NCBI RefSeq assembly: GCF_024399475.1
Contig: NZ_CP101620.1
Location: forward strand, 1,655,608 to 1,719,607
DNA from: Allocoprobacillus halotolerans
GTDB lineage: Bacteria > Bacillota_I > Bacilli_A > Erysipelotrichales > Coprobacillaceae
Length of the DNA: 64,000 bases
Reading direction: 5' to 3'
A program made the position numbers and the translations under genes. Position 1 is the stretch's first letter; every line of letters starts with the position of its first letter. Below the pieces are notes generated by a model. It searched no databases, was not told the DNA's origin, and saw only the letters and a list, made by a program, of their open reading frames with translations. This document shows positions 6,431 through 43,813 of the stretch, in pieces.

Positions 6431-6509
6431 GTGTAGAAGCAAGGATTTTTTAAACAACTGAGATATCTCAGTTGTTTAAAAAGAGAAATCCTTAATTCAA
6501 ACTTCTATA
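6431..6509. repeat. 79-bp nested palindrome
   Basis: The core at 6450-6479 is a perfect 30-base palindrome centred on GAGATATCTC. It is enclosed by AAGGATTT (6441-6448) facing AAATCCTT, and further out by GTGTAGAAG facing CTTCTATAC. It ends 24 bases before the esterase start. No T run follows on either strand, so it is not an ordinary terminator; an operator, a small palindromic mobile repeat or a recombination target are options. Confidence 0.75.
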
Positions 6510-6533
6510 CATATTATACGAGGAGAGATATAT

Positions 6534-7268
6534 ATGGCGAAAATACAATGTAATGTGATTTCGTATACTTTAATGAGAACGGTTGATATTGATGTGATTT
6601 TACCAACTGTAACAATTCCTGAAAGTTTGATGAATCAGGGAAAAGTGCATCATGACTATCAAAAGAAATTTCCAGTTTTATATCTTTTACATGGGTTTGG
6701 AAACAATCATGCACAATGGTGTGGCTATACTAATGTAGAACTTTATGCTGAGGAAAGACAAATCGCAGTCGTGATGATTTCAGGTGAAAACAAAAAGTAT
6801 ATTGATCAAAATGAAGATTTGTTTGCGAATTTTATTGCTTATGAGCTTCCTGAGTTTATTACGCAAGTTTTCCCAATTTCTACAAGAAAAGAAGATACTT
6901 TTATTGCAGGACTTTCAATGGGAGGATTTGGAGCTTTATATCATGGTTTAAGTCGTCCTGAGAAATATAGTGCTATAGGAGCTTTTTCACCAGGAATCAA
7001 AATGCAAGGAAATCCAATAGATCTTTATGAAGTATTGGAATCATGTGATCAAAAGATTCCTATCTATATGGCTTGTGGTGAAAATGATTTCCTTTATGAT
7101 ACAAATGTTGAATTTGTAAAAAGTCTTCAAGACAAACATATGCCATTAACATGGTTGAGTGTACCAGGTTATGAACATGAGTGGCGTTTCTGGGATAAAT
7201 GTATTGAAGAATTTTTAGATTGGATACAGCGCAGTGATGCCTATGCCAATGCAAAAAGAAAAATTTAA
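6534..7268 (+). CDS. alpha/beta-hydrolase esterase (EstA/esterase D type)
   Basis: Predicted cytoplasmic serine esterase of 244 residues, likely removing acetyl or other acyl groups from sugars. Oxyanion/strand motif PVLYLLHGFGNN near residue 45, nucleophile elbow GLSMGG near 126, acid in CGENDF and histidine in GYEHEWRFW near 220. AGGAGA sits ten bases before the ATG. It is followed 12 bases later by a GH1 gene, so the pair should form one operon acting on acylated glucosides. Deacetylation is inferred from context; the fold is firm. Confidence 0.85.
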   Translation: MAKIQCNVISYTLMRTVDIDVILPTVTIPESLMNQGKVHHDYQKKFPVLYLLHGFGNNHAQWCGYTNVELYAEERQIAVVMISGENKKYIDQNEDLFANFIAYELPEFITQVFPISTRKEDTFIAGLSMGGFGALYHGLSRPEKYSAIGAFSPGIKMQGNPIDLYEVLESCDQKIPIYMACGENDFLYDTNVEFVKSLQDKHMPLTWLSVPGYEHEWRFWDKCIEEFLDWIQRSDAYANAKRKI

Positions 7269-8747
<1,479 letters not shown>

Positions 8748-41113: not shown

Positions 41114-42111
41114 AAATTTTAGTCACAGGAGGGGCAGGCTATATTGGCAGCCATACAGTTGTAGAATTAATGCAGGAAGGTCATGAAGTTGTGATTGTTG
41201 ATAACTTTTATAATTCTAAACCAGAAGCATTGGATAATATTACCAAGATTACTGGAAAAAGACCGACTTTTTATGAAGTGGATTGCTTAGATGAAATGGC
41301 TATGGAAAAGGTTTTTCAGGAACATCATATTGATGGAGCTATTCATTTTGCTGGTTATAAAGCGGTTGGTGAATCCGTTCAAAAACCAATGGAATATTAT
41401 CAAAATAACTTGATGAGTACGCTAGTTTTATGTCAGTTATTAAGAAAATATAACTGTAAGAATTTGATTTTTTCATCAAGTGCAACAGTTTATGGAAATC
41501 CTCATACTGTTCCAATCAAAGAAGATTTCCCATTAGGACCAACAACAAATCCTTATGGTACAACAAAATTAATGATTGAAAATATTTTAAGAGATATTTA
41601 TATTTCTGATGATGAATGGAATATCGTCTTATTAAGATATTTTAATCCAATTGGTGCTCATGCCAGTGGATTGTTAGGTGAAGATCCTAATGGTATTCCT
41701 AACAATTTGGTGCCTTATATTTCAAAAGTTGCAGTTGGAGAACTTGAATGTTTAGGTGTCTTTGGAAATGATTATGATACACCTGATGGAACAGGAGTCA
41801 GAGATTATATTCATGTGGTTGACTTAGCCAAAGGGCATGTTAAAGCGTTGAAAAAATTAACTGGAGATCATGGTGTCTATACTTATAACTTAGGGACAGG
41901 ACATGGTTATAGTGTTTTGGACATTGTTAAAGCATATGAAAAAGCCAATGATGTGAAAGTTAATTATGAAATCAAGCCAAGACGTGCGGGTGATATTGCG
42001 ACTTGTTATGCTGATCCAACAAAAGCCAGAGAAGAACTTGGTTGGGTGGCTGAAAAAACATTGGAAGATATGTGTAAAGACGCATATCACTTTATCACAA
42101 AGAATCGTTAA
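41110..42111 (+). CDS. galE: UDP-glucose 4-epimerase
   Basis: 333-residue short-chain dehydrogenase-fold enzyme interconverting UDP-glucose and UDP-galactose with bound NAD. GGAGYIGSHTVVEL dinucleotide loop, catalytic SSSATVYG and YGTTK (Tyr-x-x-x-Lys), and RDYIHVVDLAKGH near the C-terminus. AAAGGAGG precedes the ATG. Supplies UDP-Gal for wall or capsule sugars. Frame intact. Confidence 0.95.
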   Translation: MKILVTGGAGYIGSHTVVELMQEGHEVVIVDNFYNSKPEALDNITKITGKRPTFYEVDCLDEMAMEKVFQEHHIDGAIHFAGYKAVGESVQKPMEYYQNNLMSTLVLCQLLRKYNCKNLIFSSSATVYGNPHTVPIKEDFPLGPTTNPYGTTKLMIENILRDIYISDDEWNIVLLRYFNPIGAHASGLLGEDPNGIPNNLVPYISKVAVGELECLGVFGNDYDTPDGTGVRDYIHVVDLAKGHVKALKKLTGDHGVYTYNLGTGHGYSVLDIVKAYEKANDVKVNYEIKPRRAGDIATCYADPTKAREELGWVAEKTLEDMCKDAYHFITKNR

Positions 42112-42135
42112 AAGTATCTTTCGGGATACTTTTTT
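42110..42135 (+). terminator. terminator of galE
   Basis: AAAAGTATC, TTTCG, GGATACTTTTTT; starts in the stop codon. Confidence 0.85.
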
Positions 42136-42171
42136 CATAACAAAAACTTCCCTGCATAAGTCAATAGGGAC

Positions 42172-42201
42172 TTGCAAAAAAGTCGGGGGGGGGTATATAA
42201 T
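42172..42201 (+). promoter_or_regulatory. promoter with a nine-G spacer tract before the ABC operon
   Basis: TTGCAA (42172-42177) and TATAAT (42196-42201) with an 18-base spacer that holds nine consecutive G (42185-42193). Long G tracts are exceptional in DNA this AT-rich. A change of one G would alter the spacer to 17 or 19 and so promoter strength; candidate phase-variable switch. Confidence 0.6.
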
Positions 42202-42218
42202 AGAAGTGAGGAGGATAT

Positions 42219-43052
42219 ATGATGAATGAAAATGTCATTGAAGTCAAAAAGCTATCTAAACAATTTGCCACAACGATTGCTTTAGAGAACTGTGATTTGA
42301 TGATAAAAAAAGGAGAAATTTTTGGCTTTTTAGGGCCCTCGGGAGCTGGTAAGACAACGACAATTAAATTGTTGACGGGGCAATTAAAAAATGATAGTGG
42401 CGATATTTTGGTTTTGGGTGAAAATCCTTTTTCATCGAAGATGAAACAAAAGATTGGAATTATGAGTGATAACAGTGGATTATATGAGAAGATGAGTGTT
42501 TATGATAATTTGTTGTTGTTTACAAAAATCTATGATATTGATAAAAGTTGTATTGAAAAAGTTTTAGCAGAAGTTGATTTGTTGGATGTTAAAAATCAGC
42601 AGGTCAGTCAATTATCAAAAGGAATGAAACAAAGATTAATTTTTGCAAGAACAATTATTCATTCACCATCACTTTTGTTTTTGGATGAACCCACAGCAAA
42701 CCTTGATCCTTCAACAGCTCAAGAAGTCAGAGAGATTATAAAAAAATTAAATGCAAAGGGAACAACCGTCTTTTTAACAACACACAATATGGAAGAAGCA
42801 GATGAAATGTGTCATCGTGTTGCTTTCTTGAATCATGGACATATTATTGAAAGTGGCGAACCAGAGGCTTTGAAGTTAAAGTATTCAAAACAATTGATTC
42901 GTATAAAAACGGATAAAAAAGATTATACGATTCCTTTAGATAAGCCCCTTTTAAAACAGGAATTAGAACAGATGAATGAATTATTAATGATTCATTCTAT
43001 TGAACCAAGTTTAAAAGAAGTCTTTTTAACACTTACAAAGGAGGAATCATAA
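42219..43052 (+). CDS. ABC transporter ATP-binding protein
   Basis: 277 residues. Walker A GPSGAGKTTTIKLL, signature LSKGMKQRL (variant LSxGM common in ABC-2 exporters), Walker B LLFLDEPTANLDP, switch His in LTTHNME. GGAGG before ATG 42219 or 42222. Its stop overlaps the permease start. Likely drives export of a drug, lipid or polysaccharide. Transcribed from the promoter with the G tract. Confidence 0.93.
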   Translation: MMNENVIEVKKLSKQFATTIALENCDLMIKKGEIFGFLGPSGAGKTTTIKLLTGQLKNDSGDILVLGENPFSSKMKQKIGIMSDNSGLYEKMSVYDNLLLFTKIYDIDKSCIEKVLAEVDLLDVKNQQVSQLSKGMKQRLIFARTIIHSPSLLFLDEPTANLDPSTAQEVREIIKKLNAKGTTVFLTTHNMEEADEMCHRVAFLNHGHIIESGEPEALKLKYSKQLIRIKTDKKDYTIPLDKPLLKQELEQMNELLMIHSIEPSLKEVFLTLTKEES

Positions 43053-43813
43053 TGAATATACGTATTTGTAAAGCTTTATTTATGAAAGATTTAAAGAATT
43101 GTTTTGTGAATAAAAATGTCTTTTTGATGTTAGCTTTACCAGTCTTATTTGGTGCGATGTATAATTTTTTATTGAGTGATATATTAGAAGGAGCGACTGG
43201 TAGTTTTGTTATTGTGCTTTGTATTGTCATGACAATATCAATTGTACCTTTGAATGTTCTAGCTAATATGGTTGCTGAAGAAAAAGAAAAACATACATTA
43301 CGCTCATTAATGCTTGCAAATGTCAGTGCGACAGATTTTTTAGTAAGTAAAGCAATGGTTGCTTTAGGATTAATGTTAATTGATGGTATACTTATTTTTC
43401 TTGTCTGTGGACAACCTTTAGGGCAATTAGGATATTTTATATTATTTTTTGTCCTTTCATCTTTAGGTGTTCTTTTCTTTGGCGCTTTAGTTGGTTTATT
43501 GGCTAAAGATCAAATGAGTGCTGGGACATTAAGTTCACCATTAATGATTTTCTTAATGTTACCACCAATGTTTAGTCAGTTTAATGAAGTGATTGGAAAA
43601 GTGGCATTATTGTTTCCTACTACATCTTTTCAAACATTATATTTACAATTATCTCAAACATCGTTTTGGAATCAAGATGTATTTATTGCGATGGTTGTTT
43701 GTTTGATTTGGGTTATTGTTGGAATTATTGCTTTTATTTACGGTTATCGAAAAAAGGATTGGATGATTAGAGAAATCTTGAGGGTTTTTCTTTTTTTCAT
43801 TTTGATAAGATGA
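43052..43813 (+). CDS. ABC-2 type permease
   Basis: About 250 residues with six membrane helices (for example FLMLALPVLFGAMYN, TGSFVIVLCIVMTISIVPLNVL). ANMVAEEKEKHTLRSLMLANVS is the conserved cytosolic loop of ABC-2 permeases. The C-terminal IREILRVFLFFILIR looks artificial: adding one A at the A6 run near 43751 would end the protein at a TAG about 43770, before a hairpin and T run. Partner of the ATPase just upstream. Confidence 0.85.
   Translation: MNIRICKALFMKDLKNCFVNKNVFLMLALPVLFGAMYNFLLSDILEGATGSFVIVLCIVMTISIVPLNVLANMVAEEKEKHTLRSLMLANVSATDFLVSKAMVALGLMLIDGILIFLVCGQPLGQLGYFILFFVLSSLGVLFFGALVGLLAKDQMSAGTLSSPLMIFLMLPPMFSQFNEVIGKVALLFPTTSFQTLYLQLSQTSFWNQDVFIAMVVCLIWVIVGIIAFIYGYRKKDWMIREILRVFLFFILIR

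Follow-up and report, generated by a model that had tools for sequence, protein, structure and literature searches.

A run of nine G residues lies in the -35/-10 spacer of the promoter of an ABC-2 export operon, and we consider it very likely that this G9 tract is a slipped-strand mutable element in a sigma-A promoter, giving phase-variable or rheostat-like control of the operon. The operon follows galE in the window, by which we mean the whole 64,000-nucleotide stretch of DNA analysed. The same layout recurs at other genes of the genome and in related bacteria, with tract lengths that differ between species.

Results

Anatomy of the ABC-2 operon promoter

The following features were identified around the tract.

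42110-42135, + strand: galE intrinsic terminator, AAAAGTATC-TTTCGG-GATACTTTT then T (perfect 9-bp inverted repeat, T tail)
42172-42177, + strand: -35-like hexamer TTGCAA (4/6 consensus match; direct reading and pair scan)
42185-42193, + strand: G9 tract within the spacer, the proposed slipping element (direct reading)
42196-42201, + strand: -10 hexamer TATAAT (6/6 consensus match)
42210-42214, + strand: Shine-Dalgarno sequence GGAGG (direct reading)
42219-43052, + strand: ABC transporter ATPase, ABC-2 export type, DrrA-like (Pfam PF00005, E 9.7e-31)
43052-43813, + strand: ABC-2 type permease of the same operon, overlapping the ATPase stop (Pfam PF12698, E 1.9e-17)

The galE gene ends at 42111 and the terminator separates it from the ABC operon, which therefore needs its own promoter. 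A consensus scan missed this terminator because its stem is A+T rich. TTGCAA and TATAAT enclose an 18-nt spacer, AAAAGTC-G9-TA (AAAAGTCGGGGGGGGGTA), and TATAAT is followed by AGAAGTGAGGAGGATAT and then by the ATG at 42219. No other -35/-10 pair in the stretch from the galE stop to the ATG equals its score of 10/12. From the position of the -10 hexamer, transcription is predicted to start at ~42207-42209; the leader would then be only ~10 nt long, with the Shine-Dalgarno sequence near its very 5′ end. As expected of a promoter of the porA type, the homopolymer lies wholly between recognisable -35 and -10 hexamers at near-optimal spacing. A consensus scan for sigma-70-like sites in 500 bp returned 2 sites against 1.4 expected by chance; the consensus match by itself is weak and not significant, and the site stands above chance through its tract and the recurring layout.

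The sequence-only reading had placed the two hexamers 18 bases apart with G9 between them, in DNA otherwise poor in G runs. The arrangement can be read directly from the sequence, and the background is indeed poor, as no other G or C run in the 64-kb window exceeds five. A first-order Markov model predicts 0.016 G runs of nine or more in the window and one is seen, so that the tract, again in keeping with the porA type, is longer than composition predicts.

Two other explanations of the local sequence were considered and rejected. Phase variation of a coding frame (translational) at 42185 does not apply to a tract that is intergenic, with the galE stop at 42111 and the next start at 42219; the ORF that crosses it (41966-42229) shares bases with galE in a different frame. 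The inverted repeat GACTT..AAGTC, which surrounds the -35 hexamer, was spotted by eye as a potential operator; it is missing from the Massilimicrobiota genome G003 and no operator is proposed.

The best NCBIfam match of the ATPase, TIGR01188 drrA, fell below cut-off, and in the family profile search no specific substrate family reached cut-off for either ATPase or permease. The ATPase is 84-86% identical to its closest database relatives, which are M. timonensis An13, Massilimicrobiota sp. An134 and two MAGs.

Poly-G tracts and -10 boxes across the genome

The window is part of a genome of 2,931,125 bp assembled as one contig (G000), in which pattern searches found two G runs of at least nine and seven of at least seven. 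In six of these seven a TANAAT -10 box begins 0-3 nt beyond the run, with a gene next.

349k: G10, spacer 16 nt, weak -35 TGGAAA; PTS EIIC, lactose/cellobiose family (PTS349)
382k: G8, spacer 16 nt; secreted protein, tandem paralogue
384k: G7, spacer 17 nt; secreted protein, tandem paralogue
732k: G8, spacer 15 nt; second PTS EIIC (PTS732)
1302k: G7, spacer 16 nt; second ABC ATPase (ABC2)
1697.8k: G9, spacer 18 nt; the promoter described above (ABC1)
1885k (C1:1885343): G7, the seventh run, non-promoter, directly ahead of a small membrane-protein gene

Given that TANAAT occurs at 0.33% of window positions, the binomial chance of finding six of seven runs beside it is ~1e-10, a figure that is weakened, not removed, by the non-independence of the two secreted-protein paralogues. 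The products of the genes behind the six tracts thus form three pairs, of ABC ATPases, PTS EIIC permeases and secreted proteins. Searching for G6N{0,4}TANAAT gave 6 distinct sites in this genome and 0 for the reversed pattern, and in the genus Massilimicrobiota 12 sites against 1 reversed.

Several details of these loci are recorded here in their own right. A cre-like site, GAAAACGTTTACACG, follows the G10 promoter at ~349k, which suggests that the possible switch is overlaid by catabolite repression; the site is kept in the tractless orthologue of genome G002. At ~382.4k the secreted-protein gene downstream of the G8 tract meets a stop after 8 codons (A6 run after ATGAAGTCTATC), unlike its 384k paralogue, which reads through the signal peptide in frame. 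The early stop would be due to a frameshift, to an assembly error or to a second switch of poly-A type.

Orthologous promoters between species

We compared G000 with the four other Massilimicrobiota genomes (G001-G004), a comparison between species only. Tracts and spacer lengths at the orthologous promoters were as follows.

ABC1: G000, G9, 18 nt; G003, GGAG7, 20 nt; G001, G9, 19 nt; G002, G5, 13 nt (16 nt if the -35 is TTATTA); G004, no tract
ABC2: G000, G7, 16 nt; G003, G8, 21 nt; G004, GGAAG6, 19 nt
PTS732: G000, G8, 15 nt; G002, G5AG5, 18 nt; G001, ordinary 18-nt spacer, no tract
PTS349: G000, G10, 16 nt; G002, ordinary 16-nt spacer, no tract

The -35 and -10 hexamers are kept while tract length or spacing differs. 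At ABC1 the tract is present in four of the five species with varying lengths or spacings, and TTGCAA is retained in G001 and G003 as well as at the ABC2 promoters of G000, G003 and G004. Conserved flanks around a tract whose length changes between related genomes are a further likeness to the porA type, seen here between species only. The orthologues without a tract support the view that these are real promoters with normal spacing, in whose spacers a G tract has apparently been gained or lost.

These data bear on the proposal in the sequence-only reading that the tract slips and alters promoter spacing, for which it had suggested counting reads of different G lengths in raw data and in related strains. 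Tract lengths or spacings do differ between species (ABC1 spacers of 18, 20, 19 and 13 nt) between conserved hexamers, and six of seven tracts abut a -10 box; both findings favour the proposal, of which slippage within a strain and its effect on transcription are the parts that we infer.

The non-promoter tract at 1885k also varies, with G7 in G000, G8 in G004 and G10 in G002, which fits length-unstable G tracts in the genus. It occupies the Shine-Dalgarno position, it would also shift the frame of an ATG that stands ahead of it (ATGAC-Gn), and it may vary translation of the small membrane-protein gene. In G001, contig C3 carries four G9 tracts at ~6494-7941, ~470-500 bp apart and each ~60 bp before a small protein starting MANI(M/V)R; these are possibly phage structural genes with phase-variable tracts.

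Wider occurrence of poly-G promoters

At the family level, G8N{0,4}TATAAT matched six distinct sites in 4 of 43 genomes against one reversed. At the order level, TTGACAN{5,16}G6N{0,5}TATAAT gave 7 sites against 0 reversed, two of them short G6 tracts ahead of a small heavy-metal-type protein. In the phylum sample, TTGACAN{4,15}G7N{0,4}TATAAT was found at 31 sites, spread over 15 of 392 genomes with a maximum of four in any one, against 0 reversed, and nearly all of them read TTGACA-N8/9-G8-11-TATAAT. Demanding perfect TTGACA and TATAAT makes these counts underestimates; only one of the six sites of the host genome itself passes. The downstream proteins are mostly lipoproteins, secreted proteins or membrane proteins as judged by a simple N-terminus heuristic, and such proteins are typical phase-variable cargo. 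Four viral contigs in IMG/VR carry the TTGACA-Gn-TATAAT layout as well, with G8-G11.

Over 33 sites the spacer averaged 18.1 nt (sd 1.8, range 14-22). The length of the tract did not correlate with that of the remaining spacer (Spearman -0.07, p 0.70), and permuting tracts between promoters left the spread of spacer lengths unchanged (1.77 vs 1.80), while the non-G part was strongly peaked, at 9 nt in 19 of the 33 sites. Together, the peak and the lack of correlation suggest that the promoters are built round a functional spacing with no tuning of single tract lengths, as would be expected of a freely slipping tract sampled at random times.

Discussion

Comparison with known phase-variable promoters

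The closest model is porA of Neisseria meningitidis, whose -35 and -10 elements flank a poly-G tract (van der Ende 1995, as cited in PMC7864442 and PMC5084427). Transcription of porA is lost when a change in poly-G length brings the spacing below its optimum of 17 nt (PMC7864442). The promoter described here likewise holds its G tract inside a sigma-70 spacer, and the length of the tract determines how far apart -35 and -10 lie, around 17-18 nt. It differs from porA in its host, a gut commensal of Gram-positive lineage, in its cargo of transporter, PTS and secreted proteins, in the number of such promoters per genome, here at least six, and in being known from sequence alone. Poly-G in the promoter region has also been proposed to control transcription of the tpr genes of Treponema pallidum, a likeness to our case; at tprL the tract overlaps the -10 region and spacing is therefore unchanged (both from the portion of PMC7864442 on these genes), unlike the present tract, which is wholly within the spacer.

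Promoter homopolymer length also controls surface genes at Mycoplasma hyorhinis vlp (poly-A) and Bordetella fim (poly-C), and vlp is the closest parallel known from a related lineage; the tract here is poly-G, unlike both. The vlp and fim promoters are referenced in an excerpt of PMC4081817. The best reading is that the poly-G promoter would work like porA, which would make it a candidate member of the proven phase-variable promoters.

Proposed mechanism

Replication slippage would add Gs to the tract or remove them, shifting the -35/-10 distance from the present 18 nt to 17 nt with G8 or 19 nt with G10. The change in spacing would raise or lower transcription of the ABC-2 export operon, as a reversible phase-variable or graded switch with a presumed role in bet-hedging. 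The promoter would belong to a set of at least six in the genome and to a type found repeatedly in the class. General sigma-70 spacing rules and the porA rule predict activity for G8 (17 nt) and G9 (18 nt), an intermediate level for G7 (16 nt) and weak transcription for G10 (19 nt) or longer. The earlier suggestion of ON/OFF or graded control of the operon is therefore reasonable. Orthologues with spacers of 13, 20 or 21 nt should be poor promoters; they could be OFF states or products of decay, or they could indicate that the -35 is not TTGCAA. The interrupted tracts GGAG7 and G5AG5 would slip less.

Alternative explanations

Observations that count against a slipping tract include the -35 match of only 4/6, the absence of a tract at the ABC1 promoter of the congener G004, the very short predicted leader, and the poor spacers and interrupted tracts of some orthologues. 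It is unlikely that the tract is instead a fixed promoter feature, either a preferred spacer sequence or a regulator site beside the -10. That would explain why the tract nearly always abuts the -10 (as TATAAT or TA-TATAAT) and is not placed anywhere in the spacer, but orthologues differ by several Gs or lack the tract while retaining ordinary spacers of 16-18 nt, and differences in the remainder of the spacer are not offset by the tract; a fixed site would keep its length.

We think it quite improbable that the tract is a chance, neutral homopolymer with no regulatory effect, the operon being transcribed by galE read-through or from another promoter. The terminator between galE and the promoter argues against read-through, and the layout shared by six of the seven genomic tracts argues against chance, as do the reversed patterns, absent from the genome itself, the order and the phylum sample and found once against 12 in the genus. 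In favour of neutrality are the imperfect -35, a consensus scan that finds about as many sites as shuffles, a congener that uses a different, tractless promoter and a promoter-like site further upstream in G003. It is hardly credible that the exact count of nine arose as an error of sequencing or assembly and that the true tract is shorter or fixed. Homopolymers are error-prone and the count may carry such an error, but independently assembled congeners and other families show G7-G11 at the same promoter position, and an error of one or two Gs would leave the pattern standing. A slipping tract in the promoter spacer is the reading that we retain.

Implications

The mechanism itself is known; for gut commensals of this class we came across no account of its use at several loci. 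Searches of the open-licence literature found no description of homopolymer phase-variable promoters in Massilimicrobiota or Erysipelotrichaceae, and nothing relevant on promoter-homopolymer phase variation in Firmicutes or Mollicutes, absences that are weak evidence. It seems reasonably likely that the class-wide TTGACA-N8/9-G(7-11)-TATAAT type forms multi-locus phasomes for surface, export and sugar-uptake functions in commensal gut Bacillota. These would include Massilimicrobiota and several other families, for which we found no homopolymer phasome described.

A 2025 review (section 8 of PMC11868660) raises as a major question why genomes with multi-locus phase variation seem confined to pathogens, and whether database bias is behind this impression. 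Six poly-G promoters in a gut commensal, and the layout in 15 of 392 genomes of the phylum, make that question testable with existing reads. The recurring layout points to a common and little-studied random on/off switching of membrane and surface genes in harmless gut bacteria. If this is true, sugar uptake and export in these bacteria would be switched at random, and isolates may therefore differ in phenotype at equal gene content.
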